Assembly: GCF_003568865.1 (NCBI RefSeq)
Contig: NZ_CP031115.1
Span: forward strand, 2,356,001-2,420,000
DNA: 64,000 nucleotides
Reading direction: 5' to 3'
Source of the DNA: Rubrobacter indicoceani
GTDB lineage: Bacteria; Actinomycetota; Rubrobacteria; Rubrobacterales; Rubrobacteraceae
Below, piece after piece: positions 29,249-52,513 of this stretch. The notes under the pieces were generated by a model that was given only the letters and a program-made list of their open reading frames with translations, made no database searches and was not told the origin of the DNA. The first letter of the stretch is position 1; each line of letters begins with the position of its first letter. The translations under genes were made by a program, and so were the position numbers.

Positions 29249-30121
29249 TTATAGCAATTCTAACTGTTCCGCTCCTTCGGAACCGGTGTCTTTCTCGCCT
29301 TCCTCCGGCTGACACGTCTCGCAGACAAACGTCGCCCGACCGCCGACGGTCATTTTTACGACCACACCGCCGCACCCCGGACACTCCTTACCCGTTCTCA
29401 GGAAAACCTTCAGGTGATCCTGGTGCGTCCCTTTTCTCCCGAGCAGATCCCGGTACAGGCTGAACGTCGTCCCGCGATGCTCGATACCGGCTTCGAGGTT
29501 GGACACGATGGCCCGGTGCAGCCTCTCCCACTCGGCCCGCAAAAGCGAACTCGCCTTTCGCCTCGGGTTGATGCCCGCCTCGAACAAAGCTTCGTCCACG
29601 TAGATGTTCCCGACCCCGGCGACCGTTCTCTGGTCCAGCAACAGCGGTTTGATCTGCGCCCTGCGCTTCCCGATGCTCTCCGGGAGATAGTCAACGGTGA
29701 AAGCCTTGTCGAACGGCTCCGGCCCGAGGTTCGCGAAGCGTTCCTCCAGCTCCTGCGCCGTGAAAACCTGCGCCCGCGTATAGCTTGTCTCGTCGCGCAG
29801 AACGACTTTTCGTCCGTCTTCGAGGTCGAGGCGGAGCATCAGATCGGTCGTCGGCATTTCCACGGGCGGCACGAGCAGCAACTGGCCGCCGATCTTCAAC
29901 TGCAACACCAGCGAATCGCCACTGTCCAGCCCGAGAACCAGATGCTTTCCGCGCCGCCACGCCTCCGTAATGGACCTCCCGGTGAGCCGCTTCAGGAAAA
30001 CCTCCGAGCCGGGATGTCCAGCGATCCGTTCGTCCAGCACCTCTGCCCCGGCAACCTCTGCCCCGGCGATGTATCTCTGCACGTCGCGGAGGATGGTCTC
30101 GACTTCGGGAAGCTCGGGCAT
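29249..30121 (-). CDS. mutM: Formamidopyrimidine-DNA glycosylase (Fpg)
   Basis: A 290-residue bifunctional DNA glycosylase/AP lyase that removes 8-oxoguanine. The catalytic MPELPEVET start (Pro2, Glu3), GRSITEAWRRGKHLVLGLDS, the H2TH region with RTVAGVGNIYVDEALFEAGI, and the C-terminal zinc finger CPGC...CETC are all intact. It begins 10 bases after the stop of the heme-oxygenase-like gene and is followed by lpdA, suggesting an operon joining oxidative-damage repair with redox enzymes. Confidence 0.93.
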   Translation of the reverse strand: MPELPEVETILRDVQRYIAGAEVAGAEVLDERIAGHPGSEVFLKRLTGRSITEAWRRGKHLVLGLDSGDSLVLQLKIGGQLLLVPPVEMPTTDLMLRLDLEDGRKVVLRDETSYTRAQVFTAQELEERFANLGPEPFDKAFTVDYLPESIGKRRAQIKPLLLDQRTVAGVGNIYVDEALFEAGINPRRKASSLLRAEWERLHRAIVSNLEAGIEHRGTTFSLYRDLLGRKGTHQDHLKVFLRTGKECPGCGGVVVKMTVGGRATFVCETCQPEEGEKDTGSEGAEQLELL

Positions 30122-30131
30122 CCCCCGTCCC

Positions 30132-30872
30132 CTATGAGACCACCGCAGGCCGCGAGTAGAGTGGTGCGGGTTCGCGGTATACGGCGCGGTACAGCCCGTC
30201 CAACATAACGCCCCGCGCATCGAGGGAGCGCATCGCGCCCTCCCGCACCCTGGCCTGCCCCGCCTCGTCCCGAACGTACGGCTCGGTCGCGTCCATCATG
30301 ATCCTTGCGTGCTCCACGTCCATGGTTACGTGGCTGATAAAGATCTCGAGGTCGCGGTCGTCGAGCCCGGCGGCCTTTCTCAGACCGCTCGCAAGCCGGG
30401 CGTAGATGGGCGGCACGGGCCACTCGCTCGCCGGCCCCATCGCCCCGAGACCGAGCCGCACGTCGGGGTGCCCTGTCATCGCCTCGTGAACGGCGATGTA
30501 CGCCTCTATCTCCGGCAGGGTCCCCGGCTCACTCCACTGCTCCTCCGAAAGGCCGAGCGCAGCCATGAACCTCCGGTACAGTGCCGGGTGCGTCTCCTCC
30601 GGTTTGAGGCCCCCGTACTCGTCCAGAAGCACGGTAGCCAGCGAAAGCTGCAAGGGTTCGTCGTCCTTGCAGTTCGAGATCAAAGCCGCAAGATACAACC
30701 GGCTCACCCGCACGTGCCGGTAATACTGCACCGCAAACGCCCGTATCCCCTCCTCATCCGCATCCCCACCCGAGAACCGCTCCAGAAACGGATGAACAAG
30801 CGACGGATGCCCCATCACATCCCGCTTCAAAAGCTCAAGAAATTCCCTCGACTCCATCTCTCTTGACCCCAT
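30132..30872 (-). CDS. Heme-oxygenase-like (TenA/PqqC/CADD fold) iron-containing redox enzyme family protein
   Basis: A 246-residue all-helical protein. HPSLVHPFLERF, QYYRHVRVSRLYLAALISNC, LLDEYGGLKPEETHPALYRR and a C-terminal ISHVTMDVEHARIMMD place His/Glu residues as in the heme-oxygenase-like di-iron oxidase group. The reaction cannot be assigned; relatives make pABA or desaturate fatty acids or amino acids. The ATG at 30872 follows AGAAGGG; an in-frame ATG at 30857 is an alternative. It is the first gene of the run with mutM and lpdA. Confidence 0.78.
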   Translation of the reverse strand: MGSREMESREFLELLKRDVMGHPSLVHPFLERFSGGDADEEGIRAFAVQYYRHVRVSRLYLAALISNCKDDEPLQLSLATVLLDEYGGLKPEETHPALYRRFMAALGLSEEQWSEPGTLPEIEAYIAVHEAMTGHPDVRLGLGAMGPASEWPVPPIYARLASGLRKAAGLDDRDLEIFISHVTMDVEHARIMMDATEPYVRDEAGQARVREGAMRSLDARGVMLDGLYRAVYREPAPLYSRPAVVS

Positions 30873-30978
30873 CGAAACCCTTCTCTCTTCTCGCTCGCCC
30901 CCGACCAACACCCTGATTCTACCCCAGCAGAACCCCGCCACCCCTCCCGATGATTTCCTCCCGGACCGGTATAAAAGT

Positions 30979-31007
30979 ATTTCATTCATTTCACTGAAAA
31001 GTATAAT
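30979..31007 (+). promoter_or_regulatory. Operator site A with TATAAT -10 box
   Basis: ATTTCATT-N6-ACTGAAAA at 30979-31000 contains the TTTCA-N10-TGAAA core also found at 50884 and 51496. It abuts TATAAT at 31002-31007, which ends 6 bases before the ATG at 31014, implying a leaderless start. The palindrome covers the -35 to -10 spacer, the usual place for a repressor. Confidence 0.6.
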
Positions 31008-31013
31008 AAAGCC

Positions 31014-31592
31014 ATGGAAGAAGCGAAGACGAAAGGCAGAGATCAGATGAACGACGGAGCGGGGGTACAGGGCTGGTTGAGCCGGCCGAGGCGGTTTGAA
31101 GGGGAGCGGCTCGACCCGCACGTTTACGCGCGCGGGGTGAACGGCTTGACGATCGAGGAAGCGTTGGGGCGGTCGCATCCGAGGGTGATGGGGATACTGA
31201 GGCGCAGCGGCGAGGAGTATACGGCGTTCGAGAGCAGGATGGTGTGGCAGGCGATGCGGGCCGCGCTTATCTCGCAGGTTTCCAGAGCGAACCTGTACCG
31301 GATAGCGGGCATCCTCGTGGCCGACCGGCGGGACGAAGGGGCAAACCGGGATACGACGCTCGCGCTGGCCTATGTGGCGGCGATCCGGGCGGCGTTTCTC
31401 GGAGAGGTCTCGGTCGGTGAGTACGTCGAGACCACCCTCGGGGCCGGTGAGGTCAAGTACATCTCACAGGATGAGAAAAACGCCGTCGTTGCGCTGTCCG
31501 GTGGTCAGCGAGAGGTCTGGCTTCCGGCCGCCGGGCTGCTCAGGGTCTCCGCGGGGGGCGGGGACGATCTCCTCGGCCGGAGGGCTTCGTAA
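31014..31592 (+). CDS. Unknown protein under the shared palindrome
   Basis: 192 residues; I do not recognise the family. It has no signal peptide or membrane span. RFEGERLDPHVYARGVNGLT and HPRVMGILRRSGEEYTAFES open a largely helical protein; ESRMVWQAMRAALISQVSRA and ANRDTTLALAYVAAIRAAFL look amphipathic; a Gly-rich end follows IALSGGQ-like VVALSGGQREVWLPAAG. A TATAAT 6 bases before the ATG suggests a leaderless mRNA; an in-frame ATG at 31047 is possible but unsupported. The promoter palindrome ties it to the 50-51 kb regulon. Confidence 0.65.
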   Translation: MEEAKTKGRDQMNDGAGVQGWLSRPRRFEGERLDPHVYARGVNGLTIEEALGRSHPRVMGILRRSGEEYTAFESRMVWQAMRAALISQVSRANLYRIAGILVADRRDEGANRDTTLALAYVAAIRAAFLGEVSVGEYVETTLGAGEVKYISQDEKNAVVALSGGQREVWLPAAGLLRVSAGGGDDLLGRRAS

Positions 31593-48830: not shown

Positions 48831-49667
48831 TCACACGGCTTCCGGCAACGCACCCCGCAGCCTGCTGGCGTAGCGTCCCGAGCGAATGGTTCTGAGGGCT
48901 TTCTTCTCGACCTGCCGGGCACGCTCCTGCGAGATGCCCAGTTCTTCGGAGACTTCTCGAAGCGTCTTTGTCTTTTCACCGTCCAGGCCGTGACGCATGC
49001 TCAGTATGCGGGCTTCCCGCTCCGGCAGGGAGCCCAGGGCGTCCCTGAGCATCCCGACCCAGGAACCGGCATTCACGGCTTCGTATTCGGACCTCGACGA
49101 ATCATCCGGGAAGAGCTCCCCGACCTCGGCTGCCTCCTCGTCCCGTCCGATTCGGACGTTCATGCTGGATACCGGCTGGCTTATCTCCCTGAGCCGCCGG
49201 ACTTCTGCGACCTCGACCTCCAGCCTGCTGGCCAGTTCTTCTTCAAGCGGCTCGCGTCCGAGTTCTATGGAGAGCGAGTTCTCGGCCCGGCGGAGCCGGA
49301 AAACGGAGTCCACGACGTGCGCCGGAAGCCGGACTGCGCGGGCGTGGTCGGCGACGGCGCGGGTTATTGCCTGACGGATCCACCACGTAGCATACGTTGA
49401 AAAGCGGAAGCCCCGGTCCGGGTCGAACTTCCCGACCGCTCGTATCAGACCGGCGTTGCCTTCCTGAATGAGGTCCTCGAAATCCAGCCCCCGGCCCCGG
49501 TACTTCTTGGCTATGGAGATAACGAGCCTCAGGTTGGATTCGATGATCCTCCGCCGCGCCGCTTCGTCACCCTGACCGACCCGCCGCCCGAGCGAGACTT
49601 CCTCCTCGGCCCTGAGAAGCCTGCCTCTTCGGACTTTGCCCATGTACTGTGTCAGAACGTCCGCCAT
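48831..49667 (-). CDS. Extra RNA polymerase sigma-70 factor (group 2, SigA/SigB-like)
   Basis: A 278-residue sigma factor lacking region 1.1. Region 1.2 and 2 are clear ([59 protein letters not shown]), then region 3 ([19 protein letters not shown]) and region 4.2 ([20 protein letters not shown]). Region 2.4 and 4.2 resemble the housekeeping factor, so it should read near-consensus promoters. The ATG lies 2 bases after the stop of the Cys-rich gene at 49670, making it the last gene of an operon started at 50840. No anti-sigma gene is adjacent, but a STAS-ATPase protein is encoded upstream. Confidence 0.9.
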
Positions 49668-49669
49668 CT

Positions 49670-49975
49670 CTATCCCATCCTCCTCTTTGGTGCCTTCTTC
49701 TGTTTCATCTCCGGTTCTTCGACCGCCACCGGGAACCTGGCGGCCACTAGCTTGTCGAGGCTGGATACGACCCGCCACTCCCCTCTGCATTCCCCGCAGA
49801 CGACGCCTCCGGGCCCGTCGTCCCCGGGAGCTGCGACCGCCCGCTTGAATGCCCCGAGACAACAGCGCGGCATCTCCGTCAGGTAGATGCCGGGGCCGGA
49901 ATCCCCCTGCACCACCGTATCTGCCCTGAGGGAGAGCGCGTCTCCACGGGTCCCGCCGCTCAGGCCGCGCCCCAT
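49670..49975 (-). CDS. Small CC-CxxC (zinc-ribbon-like) protein, second paralog
   Basis: 101 residues, unknown family. YLTEMPRCC (Cys38-39) and [13 protein letters not shown] (Cys60, Cys63) give a CC...CxxC set that could bind zinc; a basic tail ([11 protein letters not shown]) follows. The upstream neighbour repeats the plan YEVDLPGCC...[13 protein letters not shown], so the two are tandem paralogs. The ATG at 49975 overlaps the upstream gene by 16 bases and has GGGGAA nearby; GTG codons at VVQGD are alternative starts. It ends 2 bases before the sigma factor. Confidence 0.65.
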
Positions 49976-50181
49976 TCCTCTTCCCCGCTCTCCACGATAA
50001 ACCCGCAGGCTTCCGGCGGGACTTCCCCTACCGGTCGCCACGAAGCCCCACATCCGGCGCACTCGAAAGCGTCCCGGTAGGATCTGGCGTCGTGCTCGCA
50101 GCAGCCGGGGAGGTCGACCTCGTAGACGACCTCCCCGCCGAACGCGGAGCTCCACAGCCTAGGGGCCGGATACCCGCGCAC
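49960..50181 (-). CDS. Small CC-CxxC (zinc-ribbon-like) protein, first paralog
   Basis: 73 residues, unknown family. Cys28-29 in DLPGCCEHD and Cys42/Cys45 in [13 protein letters not shown] repeat the spacing of the next gene's product; the C terminus is acidic (ESGEEEW). The GTG start shares one base with the stop of the recombination-protein gene (TAGTG), and GGGAGG lies about 8 bases upstream, so translation is coupled. A longer form from 50214 would overlap that gene by 34 bases and is less likely. Confidence 0.65.
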
Positions 50182-50840
50182 TACGCAGCCCTCCCGGAGA
50201 GCCGGCCGATCCACTCCGAAGCCTCTTCCCGGGTTAACTCGGCGATCTTCTTCCCGACCATCTCCTCGAACTGCGGGATACCGTTTGCAACCGCATCGTC
50301 CACAAGCGACTCAAGATAGTTGAGCTGCTTTCTGGTCGCCGGAAGATGCCCCTTCTGGACTTCCTCCCCGACCGTATCCGCAGCCTTCGCGGCCGGAGCC
50401 TTTGCCGTGGAGGCTTTCGCCGCAGAAGTCTTTGCGGCTCTGGAAGGCACCGACTCGTTTGTCGAGGCCCTTGCGTTCGCCTTCGCCGGACGACCGGCGG
50501 CCTCCTGCTCTTCTCCGCCAAGCTCCTCAAAGGATGTTACCCCGACGTTGATGGCATCCCGAAGAGCCCGCGCCTTGGCCCGAGTCTCGGCCATCCGGAT
50601 AACGTGCGGCGCGATGTTCCGCCCGACGTTCTCCGGCGAAGCGTCCCCGATGCCGCTGAACTTCCCCTCCTCGGTCCTGATCACGGCCTTCACTATCGCC
50701 ACCCCGCCGTTCTCGGCGGAAGGAGCCTGCAGGAGATCCGTCTCGATGCTCCTCAACCCGCGCAGGTGAGCCTCCTCGAGAAGCCCCGCATAAAGCACGA
50801 ACTGCTTGCCCTGGCGCTCGATCATAAACTCTTCTCGCAT
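50181..50840 (-). CDS. Erf/Rad52-like single-strand annealing protein candidate
   Basis: 219 residues. The N-terminal domain (FVLYAGLLEEAHLRGLRSIE, then GIGDASPENVGRNIAPHVI and RMAETRAKARALRDAINVG) recalls Erf/Sak/Rad52-type annealing proteins, which end their core with a similar ETRAxxRAL helix. This is pattern recognition, not a database match. An Ala/Lys/Ser-rich linker follows, then a small helical domain (GHLPATRKQLNYLESLVDDA and LTREEASEWI) common at the C termini of DNA-metabolism proteins. GGGAGG is 8 bases before the ATG. It heads the operon with the two Cys-rich proteins and the sigma factor, under palindrome B. Confidence 0.65.
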   Translation of the reverse strand: MREEFMIERQGKQFVLYAGLLEEAHLRGLRSIETDLLQAPSAENGGVAIVKAVIRTEEGKFSGIGDASPENVGRNIAPHVIRMAETRAKARALRDAINVGVTSFEELGGEEQEAAGRPAKANARASTNESVPSRAAKTSAAKASTAKAPAAKAADTVGEEVQKGHLPATRKQLNYLESLVDDAVANGIPQFEEMVGKKIAELTREEASEWIGRLSGRAA

Positions 50841-50883: not shown

Positions 50884-50905
50884 ATTTCACTGATATGAGT
50901 GAAAT
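50884..50905. promoter_or_regulatory. Operator site B, perfect 8-bp palindrome
   Basis: ATTTCACT-GATATG-AGTGAAAT is a perfect inverted repeat 44-65 bases upstream of the annealing-protein start and 25 bases after the STAS/winged-helix stop. A second perfect palindrome, AATAACGGTTATT (50873-50885), abuts it. The same TTTCA-N10-TGAAA core is at 30979 and 51496. Confidence 0.75.
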
Positions 50906-50929
50906 TTAGGTCAAATAGAGAGTTTTCCA

Positions 50930-51520
50930 TCAGACGATCCCTTCGTAGAAATAGCGTCGGCCGCTGGCTTCCTTGCGGCGGTTCACGAGTCCTCTTTCGT
51001 GGAGGTTGCTGGTCCGGTTGTTGCAGGCGGTCTGGTTTATCCCGAGGCGCCTGGCGAGGTCCGCCGTTGTGATCGGCCCCAGCGTCCGGATCGCTTCAAG
51101 GGTCTCCACCAGATGCTCTTCGAGCCTGCCGAGCAGGTGGGGTTCGCCGCCTACCCGCTCGACACGGAAGGCGTTTACGTCGCGTTCCCTGAGCGACATC
51201 TCGATGTTCTCGAGAAGGTCGCGGTCTTCATCAAGGAGTATGGCCCTGCGGTCGCCGTAGTCGCCCCGGGCGGCGCGGGATATGACGGTGCCGAATGCTG
51301 TGTCCGAGAAGGAGTAATCCAGAAACTCGACCCCGCGAAGGTCTATATACAGCAGGCCCCCCGCAGGAACGGACTCCAGTTCGGACTCCAGAACCGCCAG
51401 ACAATTGCGCCCCAGCGAACGAAGGTGAAGCAGCTTCCCCTCGCTCGCCGCCACGTCGAAGACGCGGTGTTCACCACCCCCGAACATCGGACCCGTTTTC
51501 ATTGTGTTCAGTGAAATCAT
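50930..51520 (-). CDS. STAS-like (DUF4325-type) domain fused to winged helix, candidate regulator
   Basis: 196 residues. The N-terminal half (GGLLYIDLRGVEFLDYSFSD, GTVISRAARGDYGDRRAILL) resembles STAS-like DUF4325 domains. The C-terminal half (LETLEAIRTLGPITTADLAR, RLGINQTACNNRTSNLHERG, LVNRRKEASGRRYFY) is a winged-helix DNA-binding domain. TTGCAC-17-TACAAT upstream ends 8 bases before the ATG at 51520, and palindrome C covers codons 2-9, so the gene looks autoregulated. It lies 72 bases downstream of the STAS-GHKL gene. I propose it binds WTTTCAYT-N6-ASTGAAAW; this is inference. Confidence 0.75.
   Translation of the reverse strand: MISLNTMKTGPMFGGGEHRVFDVAASEGKLLHLRSLGRNCLAVLESELESVPAGGLLYIDLRGVEFLDYSFSDTAFGTVISRAARGDYGDRRAILLDEDRDLLENIEMSLRERDVNAFRVERVGGEPHLLGRLEEHLVETLEAIRTLGPITTADLARRLGINQTACNNRTSNLHERGLVNRRKEASGRRYFYEGIV
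51496..51517. promoter_or_regulatory. Operator site C at the start of the STAS/winged-helix gene
   Basis: TTTTCATT-N6-AGTGAAAT, one strand of the shared palindrome, lies immediately downstream of the predicted transcription start and inside the first codons (51520 ATG). A bound protein would block transcription at initiation or early elongation. Confidence 0.6.
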
Positions 51521-51528
51521 TTGAACTC

Positions 51529-51557
51529 ATTGTAAAGGCGGGGCCGGGGATGTGCAA
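51529..51557 (-). promoter_or_regulatory. Promoter of the STAS/winged-helix gene
   Basis: On the minus strand TTGCAC (51552-51557), a 17-base spacer and TACAAT (51529-51534) lie just before the ATG at 51520. The box-to-ATG distance of 8 bases predicts a leaderless or nearly leaderless mRNA. Confidence 0.6.
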
Positions 51558-51592: not shown

Positions 51593-52513
51593 TCATCGTC
51601 TGTGGGGTTCTCCGGTGTGTCTGGGGAGCGAAACCCGGACAAAGGTTCCGGGGAAATCGGGGACGTTTCTCGGTCTCTGCTTCTCTTCCTTGTTGACGGT
51701 AACACGTCCGGAGCCGGATCTTATAGAGAGCGAACCACCGTTTCTGGCCGAGAGTTGAGCAACGAGGGTCAGGCCGCCGCCGCGACCGATCTCCCCGGTG
51801 GAGGTTACGCCCATCTTGAGCGCGTGGCGGATGGCGTCGTTGTCGGTGGCGGTGTGTTCGGCGTAGACGGGGTTACGCAGAAGCGTGTTCCTGATGCCGG
51901 GTCCACCGTCGGCGATCGAGATAATCACCTCTTCCCCGTCCCGACGCGAGCCGCTGACGATGTGATCGTAAGCCTGTACCGCAACATAGGCACCAAAGGA
52001 AGAGCGACCGTGCTCGGCGGCGTTGCCGCAGATCTCCGAGAGCGTGGAGCAGATAGCGACCCGCTCGCGCAGAAGGTATTCGCGGCTTTCGAGGATATCC
52101 GAGATGCGCTGGATTATGTCTTTTATCTCGCTCTCTTCGTGGAAGTTGACGAGTTCTTGGAGGGTTCCGGGGTTGTGGCGTTCGCGGTCTTCAAGAGAGG
52201 AGACGTCGGGGTGAACCGAGACCCTGCCGGAGAAGAGCCGGAAGAAGTCCATGCGTTCGAGGTATGCGGCGACGTTCCGACCGGAGAGGGCGATGGAGAC
52301 CGCCTCGGAGCGGGTGGTCAGGGCTTCGAGCAGGGCGGCCAGACCGCAGAGCCCGGCGGGTTCGACGAAGTCAACCGAGCGGAGGTCGAGTTCGACCGGG
52401 TCCCCGTCTACGGTGCTGATCGCCTCGAAGGCCGGATCGAGACTTCCGAGCGTCAGAACGCCGGACATCGCGCCGCGACTCTGTACGTTGAGGGTGATCC
52501 TGGTCTTCTTCAC
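51593..52513 (-). CDS. STAS domain fused to GHKL (HATPase) domain
   Basis: 306 residues. The N-terminal STAS-like domain (VELDLRSVDFVEPAGLCGLA) has Ala where the phosphorylated Ser/Thr of anti-sigma antagonists normally sits. A middle helix region leads to a GHKL ATPase: N-box LSEICGNAAEHG, G1 IISIADGGPGI and G2 GEIGRGGGLTLVAQL. It is a one-protein version of the antagonist/anti-sigma kinase pair of partner-switching systems. TACAAT at 52521-52526 ends 7 bases before the GTG, so the mRNA is probably leaderless. The STAS/winged-helix gene follows 72 bases downstream. Confidence 0.8.
   Translation of the reverse strand: MKKTRITLNVQSRGAMSGVLTLGSLDPAFEAISTVDGDPVELDLRSVDFVEPAGLCGLAALLEALTTRSEAVSIALSGRNVAAYLERMDFFRLFSGRVSVHPDVSSLEDRERHNPGTLQELVNFHEESEIKDIIQRISDILESREYLLRERVAICSTLSEICGNAAEHGRSSFGAYVAVQAYDHIVSGSRRDGEEVIISIADGGPGIRNTLLRNPVYAEHTATDNDAIRHALKMGVTSTGEIGRGGGLTLVAQLSARNGGSLSIRSGSGRVTVNKEEKQRPRNVPDFPGTFVRVSLPRHTGEPHRR

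Follow-up and report, generated by a model that had tools for sequence, protein, structure and literature searches.

A palindrome conserved at three gene starts of Rubrobacteraceae very probably binds a phosphorylation-controlled repressor related to CapS

A short palindrome over the promoters of repair genes is known from a radiation-resistant group in the form of the DdrO/RDRM system of Deinococcus, and pairs of a STAS protein and a GHKL kinase classically serve general stress, as in SpoIIAA/SpoIIAB and RsbV/RsbW. The closest described system to the locus presented here is CapK/CapS, in which CapK, an HTH-STAS-GHKL kinase activated by single-stranded DNA (ssDNA), phosphorylates CapS at Ser54 (Chambers et al., EMBO J 2026, PMC13373217). 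Upon phosphorylation, the CapS dimer falls apart, by which capS itself and the downstream immune operon are released, and the system responds to DNA damage (PMC13373217). The genes follow each other in the order capK, capS, operon, and the CapS sites, consisting of TTAA half-sites 1 or 10 bp apart, are located before capS and between capS and the next operon (PMC13373217). Trp68 of CapK contacts ssDNA and is needed for activation by it, a deletion of the CapK HTH domain had no effect, and the linkage to an immune operon, found in 348 of 443 published cases, is usual rather than defining (PMC13373217). The published capK-capS locus of Enterobacter roggenkampii (L167, NZ_CP109730.1) sits on an IncHI2A plasmid; among the plasmid records with a match, 32 of 43 carry CapS at an identity of at least 95%, and the listed hosts include Enterobacter, Citrobacter, Salmonella, Klebsiella and E. 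coli.

Here, we analysed a stretch of 64,000 nucleotides from Rubrobacter indicoceani (the window), for which an earlier note had proposed that a shared palindrome, WTTTCAYT-N6-ASTGAAAW, marks three promoters of a candidate new regulon. The palindrome very probably serves a phosphorylation-controlled repressor of the CapK/CapS type as its binding site. To the earlier note, the analysis adds the kinase partner encoded by the adjacent gene, the precedent of CapK/CapS and the DNA-repair genes that are putative targets in the Abditibacteriota. The features of the window on which the analysis is based are the following.

51593-52513, minus strand: capK-like gene, STAS plus GHKL (HATPase) kinase, 306 aa, GTG start
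51529-51534, minus strand: -10 element TACAAT of the capS-like gene, with the -35 element TTGCAC at 51552-51557 and a spacer of 17
51496-51517: putative operator 1, shortly after the predicted transcription start of the capS-like gene, over its codons 2-8
50930-51520, minus strand: capS-like gene, STAS plus winged HTH, 196 aa, predicted leaderless; probable repressor and autoregulator
50884-50905: putative operator 2, between the capS-like and the annealing-protein-like gene, with perfect 8-bp arms
50181-50840, minus strand: probable single-strand annealing protein, 219 aa, with a Rad52/Sak3/Erf-like domain at the N-terminus and a small helical one at the C-terminus
49960-50214, minus strand: small conserved ORF of 84 aa that contains Cys (identity to two relatives 57% and 51%)
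49670-49975, minus strand: small ORF, 101 aa, similar Cys motif
48831-49667, minus strand: RpoD-like sigma factor, which closes the row (ORF listed as 48831-49862, conserved part from near the Met at 49667)
30979-31000: putative operator 3, located 20 kb from the other two in the spacer of the 31014 promoter
31002-31007, plus strand: -10 element TATAAT of the predicted leaderless 31014 promoter, which contains operator 3
31014-31592, plus strand: conserved protein of unknown family, 192 aa, orthologs in 33 of 39 genomes

The core of the palindrome, TTTCA-N10-TGAAA, occurs without mismatch three times in the window, and the positions 30979, 50884 and 51496 given previously were all exact on re-reading. 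Dinucleotide shuffles of the window (n = 300) contained on average 0.03 copies and at most one, and when other spacers between TTTCA and TGAAA were allowed (0-30 tested), a single extra match was obtained, at N1. The earlier statement that the window holds no fourth copy was borne out and can be extended to the whole genome (3,078,689 bases, about 3.08 Mb, in 3 contigs), where the exact scan returned the same three sites, all at gene starts, and no other, and where the reversed-pattern control gave no match. With one mismatch allowed, 10 sites were found in the genome, 7 of them besides the three known ones, compared to 8 in the control, and we therefore do not claim a fourth member of the regulon in this genome.

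Conservation in related genomes was then evaluated with the consensus YTCACT-N6-AGTGAR, which was derived from 77 sites. The W/T at the outer positions and the arm TTTCAYT turned out to be details of this one genome, since relatives carry CTCACT or TTCACT. An exact scan of 39 Rubrobacteraceae genomes yielded 71 matches versus one for the reversed control, and 70 of the 71 could be assigned, by coordinates, to the same three genes. The motif is thus not scattered at random in coding DNA. Across the ortholog loci, the box was present at the winged-helix gene in 30 of 30, at a fixed offset from the ATG (codons 2-8), before the ortholog of the 50181 gene in 30 of 30, and before the 31014 ortholog in 17 of 30, here within the -35/-10 region next to the -10 element; the upstream form of the latter in relatives is often TTGTCTCACTAGTCTCAGTGAAGTATAAT, with the box between -35 and -10, and the 31014 orthologs of the other 13 genomes lack it. 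The scan and the ortholog conservation together support the regulon suggested before. Among the 39 genomes, orthologs were counted in 36 for the winged-helix protein (including a few weak partial matches), in 38 for the 50181 protein (including a paralog found in most genomes) and in 33 for the 31014 protein. At the coding site, a Ser codon TCA and a Thr codon ACA, which account for only 5% of the Ser and 11% of the Thr codons, respectively, are invariant in 30 of 30 loci, from which we conclude that the constraint at 51496 acts on the DNA and not only on the protein; coding constraint as the cause of this site is thereby ruled out. The lone exact match away from the three genes (G022:C40:15457-15474; L133 around 2458) is followed by a TATAAT at a distance of about 11 bp and by a 65-aa ORF, and could be a lineage-specific fourth target or due to chance. 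Many relatives (L038, L040, L043, L047 and others) carry a second conserved element, TTTGCAGG-N-AATTCA, in front of their leaderless 31014-type gene, irrespective of whether the box is there.

The earlier note had named the winged-helix protein as the natural candidate for an autoregulator, and its kinship strengthens this proposal. Pfam matches of the protein are MarR/HTH_24 and the STAS-like DUF4325. A profile of 21 orthologs found CapS structures as the best PDB matches over both domains (9z71 and 9z72/9z73, E 4e-6 to 1e-5), which are the CapS proteins of Vibrio cholerae and Enterobacter roggenkampii (PMC13373217), and hhalign against the latter protein gave E 4e-7. CapS is known to repress its own gene, and its palindromic site is spaced identically: read as TTCA-N10-TGAA, the Rubrobacter box corresponds to the wide palindrome of CapS, i.e. 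18 bp with 4-bp half-sites 10 bp apart, and this spacing fits the interface-1 dimer of CapS. Ser70 of the window protein aligns with the phosphorylated Ser54 of CapS, and the column is Ser in all 34 sequences, including those of the Abditibacteriota and CapS. In contrast to CapS, the half-site is TTCACT/AGTGAA instead of TTAA, and all Rubrobacter sites are wide and none narrow. The CapS-like protein was present in 22 of 22 high-quality Rubrobacteraceae genomes; with a cut-off of E < 1e-10, the only occurrence outside this family among 396 sampled Actinomycetota genomes was a single weaker relative. Taken together, it is very likely that the CapS-like protein reads the box, and autoregulation, as in CapS, would follow the same pattern.

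The capK-like gene is directly upstream of and adjacent to the capS-like gene in 30 of 30 Rubrobacteraceae loci, a count for which the aligned kinase piece ends further from the regulator in G003 and G036. Its product matches HATPase_c (1.3e-7) and STAS_2 (0.004) in Pfam, and hhalign against CapK of Enterobacter roggenkampii (probability 96.7, E 4.4e-10) aligns the Asn of its N-box with the catalytic Asn218. As in the published layout, the kinase gene is directly followed by the gene of the STAS-wHTH protein, and the boxes are located at the capS-like gene and between it and the next gene. Two features of CapK are missing from the window kinase: the N-terminal HTH domain, as its 306 aa comprise only STAS and then GHKL, and Trp68, which has no counterpart since the kinase sequence is devoid of Trp, the residue lying outside the aligned part. 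ssDNA sensing is therefore unsupported for the Rubrobacter kinase, and the trigger of CapK may not carry over. The locus further differs from CapK/CapS in that it is chromosomal, vertically conserved in the whole family and not an immune locus; the genes downstream encode the annealing-like protein, the small ORFs and the sigma factor, and no known immune operon, and with the gene 20 kb away there is also a putative target in trans. Judged by these comparisons, the Rubrobacter switch appears to be a variant related to CapK/CapS that would work like it.

On the minus strand, the genes follow in the order capK-like, capS-like, box, annealing-like, two small ORFs and sigma factor. The start of the capS-like gene reads TTGCAC-N17-TACAAT-8 nt-ATG, and TATAAT/TACAAT, then about 8 nt and then ATG, is kept in the aligned orthologs. 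This arrangement places the predicted transcript start at the ATG or within 1-2 nt of it, with the box a few bases downstream, so that the transcript is probably leaderless or nearly so. The site at 51496, noted before as lying just past the predicted gene start, thus corresponds to codons 2-8, and the description of the site at 30979 as part of the spacer of a leaderless promoter likewise holds, because the box fills the -35/-10 spacer ahead of TATAAT-N6-ATG of the 31014 gene. Both positions would suit a repressor. The box at 50884 does lie ahead of the annealing-protein gene as the earlier note stated, but it is situated inside a row of genes on the same strand and not at the head of a separate operon; no confident promoter was recognized there by eye, and no -10 element is found at the normal distance from the upstream TTGAC. 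The two small ORFs between the annealing-like and the sigma gene (49670-50214) share similar Cys motifs (CC...CxxC) and are possibly small zinc proteins. The 31014 gene is divergent from a haem-oxygenase-like gene, which is followed by a formamidopyrimidine-DNA glycosylase gene (29249-31014), and this order is kept in two relatives.

Based on these results, we propose that the CapS-like STAS-wHTH protein (50930-51520) uses YTCACT-N6-AGTGAR as its operator. As an unphosphorylated dimer, it would sit on the box and block, rather than activate, three transcripts: that of the capS-like gene itself, where the box covers the initial codons of a leaderless gene; that of the downstream probable annealing protein, the two small proteins and the sigma factor; and that of the distant gene at 31014. 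Under stress, most likely DNA damage, the GHKL kinase encoded upstream would phosphorylate Ser70, upon which the dimer would dissociate and the three units would be released together. We consider this reading as a whole, a chromosomal and vertically conserved CapK/CapS-type switch over a small DNA-damage regulon, to be likely. Provided that the CapS-like protein reads the box, there is a good probability that the switch answers DNA damage.

The first of the putative output genes points in the same direction, with moderate confidence. The 50181 protein had no match in Pfam, NCBIfam or PDB and none in PADLOC, and its alignment shows an invariant AETRAKARALRDA motif. Phage relatives share 49-54% identity over the N-terminal part, one of them being annotated as 'DNA repair and recombination protein' and located beside replication genes, and weak viral fold matches comprise SAK3, Erf and Rad52 proteins. 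The 31014 protein consists of a helical domain with an invariant SRANLYRIAGILVADRRDEGA and a Tudor/KOW-like SH3 domain. AlphaFold models of the two proteins were of moderate confidence (pLDDT 67 for the annealing-like and 61 for the 31014 protein), and a PDB fold search with them gave no match at E < 0.001 for either; therefore, only the Tudor/KOW-like end of the 31014 protein and the weak viral annealing matches were used. From this evidence, the 50181 product is somewhat more probably than not an annealing protein. A paralog with 52% identity (G000:C1:51938-52648), which also occurs in most relatives, has no box among the class-wide exact matches.

A search for relatives in 84,980 species genomes revealed capS-like genes with 35-39% identity at three loci of the Abditibacteriota, the third of which (L166) was grouped with this phylum by similarity. 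At two loci, the exact box TTTCACTGATTCGAGTGAA is found upstream of the capS-like gene, and the third carries TTTCACTGACGCGAGTGA there. A homolog from another phylum hence bears the same box at its own gene, which adds to the case for autoregulation; the neighbourhood of these genes is wholly different from that in Rubrobacter, and there is no capK-like gene within the flanks of the three loci. Boxed loci in the genomes G396, G397 and G398 were L163, L165, L166, L178, L179, L188, L190, L191, L204, L206 and L209, with gene identities assigned by Pfam and PHROGs. An exact or one-mismatch box lies upstream of a Sak4-like annealing ATPase in G396 (L209) and G398 (L178), and about 650 bp away from it in G397. 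The five exact sites of TTCACT-N6-AGTGA in G396 all fall between genes, each ahead of a gene, and recA, at a distance of 112 bp (L191), is among the genes concerned. One-mismatch boxes were located 9 bp upstream of ruvB (G396, L188) and upstream of ssb (G398, L204) and an SRAP gene (G396, L190), and a weaker box between a RadA-like gene, so called from a reading of its domains, and a 130-aa gene (G398, L206), the homolog of which has an exact box in G396 (L179). One-mismatch sites in the Abditibacteriota are overall no more numerous than in the control, and the ruvB, ssb, SRAP and radA-like targets are therefore leads; they are based on gene identity and position and not on counts, and the sites inspected were hand-chosen and not blind. 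Of 13 further Abditibacteriota genomes, taken irrespective of their capS-like content, 9 were without a match, and the matches of the other four look like repeats or lie within genes. The boxes possibly mark an SOS-like regulon without LexA: as with LexA, an autoregulated repressor would act before recA, ssb, ruvB and SRAP genes, but the CapS-like regulator has no S24 protease domain, and release would be expected via phosphorylation instead of RecA-stimulated self-cleavage.

Could the boxes be unrelated to the protein encoded between them? Adjacency to a regulator gene is no proof of binding, and the known CapS half-site is TTAA and not TTCACT, so that the box might be bound by another, unlinked regulator for which the capS-like gene is merely one target. 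This is unlikely given that the box accompanies the capS-like gene into another phylum with entirely different neighbours, that the 13 further Abditibacteriota genomes, whatever their capS-like content, gave either no match or repeat-like and in-gene ones, and that the spacing fits the interface-1 dimer of CapS. That the palindromes arose by chance, with the site at 51496 conserved only through the N-terminus of the protein, has practically no probability left: one of the three sites is indeed within coding DNA, but the other two are non-coding and conserved, the rare codons TCA and ACA are invariant, the shuffled windows averaged 0.03 copies, and the class-wide scan (70/71) together with the ortholog conservation (30/30, 30/30 and 17/30) refutes this explanation. 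Only slightly more credit is given to a core promoter element for a special sigma factor, perhaps the RpoD-like sigma factor of the same row, although its gene is in the row and all sites are near gene starts. Such an element is disfavoured by the variable position of the box, which occupies the promoter spacer at 31014 and lies downstream of the start at 51520; moreover, the capS-like and 31014 promoters have ordinary -10 hexamers, and the box is palindromic and found in the Abditibacteriota.

A further alternative accepts a CapK/CapS-type switch but assigns it a signal and an output other than DNA damage; an example would be a partner-switching stress module that answers desiccation or envelope stress mainly through the sigma factor. 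The general-stress role that is classical for STAS/GHKL pairs, the position of the sigma gene at the end of the row and the lack of Trp68, which leaves ssDNA sensing unsupported, speak for it. As in SpoIIAA/SpoIIAB and RsbV/RsbW, a STAS protein with a conserved Ser is combined with a GHKL kinase, whereas the Rubrobacter STAS protein itself bears a DNA-binding domain. Against a non-damage switch stand the resemblance of the first output gene to an annealing protein, the Abditibacteriota boxes ahead of recA, Sak4-like, ruvB, ssb and SRAP genes, and the response of the known CapK/CapS system to DNA damage (PMC13373217). We therefore assign a small but appreciable probability to it and favour the DNA-damage switch.

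Rubrobacter radiotolerans RSPS-4 is extremely radiation-resistant, and its genome paper reported no lexA, irrE, pprA or ddrA-D and suggested other pathways (PMC4148983). The regulator linked to the box is indeed not LexA, the LexA homologs of the family being separate, divergent and patchy: best matches in Rubrobacteraceae reach about 116-161 bits versus about 194-244 in most other Actinomycetota tested (39-41 genomes), and LexA-type proteins number two in the R. indicoceani genome and are absent from G012 (100% complete) and G026 (96%). The likeness to DdrO/RDRM, a short palindrome at repair-gene promoters of radiation-resistant bacteria, does not extend to the regulator, which is unrelated to the CapS-like protein, nor to irrE, pprA and ddrA-D, reported absent from R. 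radiotolerans RSPS-4 (PMC4148983). For radiation-resistant Rubrobacter, the conserved switch of kinase and repressor, whose operator is defined and has no more than three copies, is thus a concrete candidate for the missing control, and literature searches found no description of such a regulon. The CapS family, described in 2026 for immune operons, would be extended to an apparent core stress response in two phyla, and the CapS-like family would gain a second operator sequence. More tentatively, and with a probability somewhat short of even, CapS-like repressors could stand at the top of a chromosomal response to DNA damage, in place of or alongside LexA. In this view, the regulon would be minimal in Rubrobacteraceae, with two units, and SOS-like (recA, ssb, ruvB, SRAP, Sak4-like, capS) in part of the Abditibacteriota, and the anti-phage CapK/CapS pairs would be mobile relatives of the system.

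The Rubrobacter switch seems to guard probable DNA-repair genes and not an anti-phage operon. The window kinase matches DrmA of PADLOC over model positions 31-266 (E 3.5e-9), and a part of the kinase matches PHROG 3364, which suggests that the STAS-GHKL module occurs in defence and phage proteins too.
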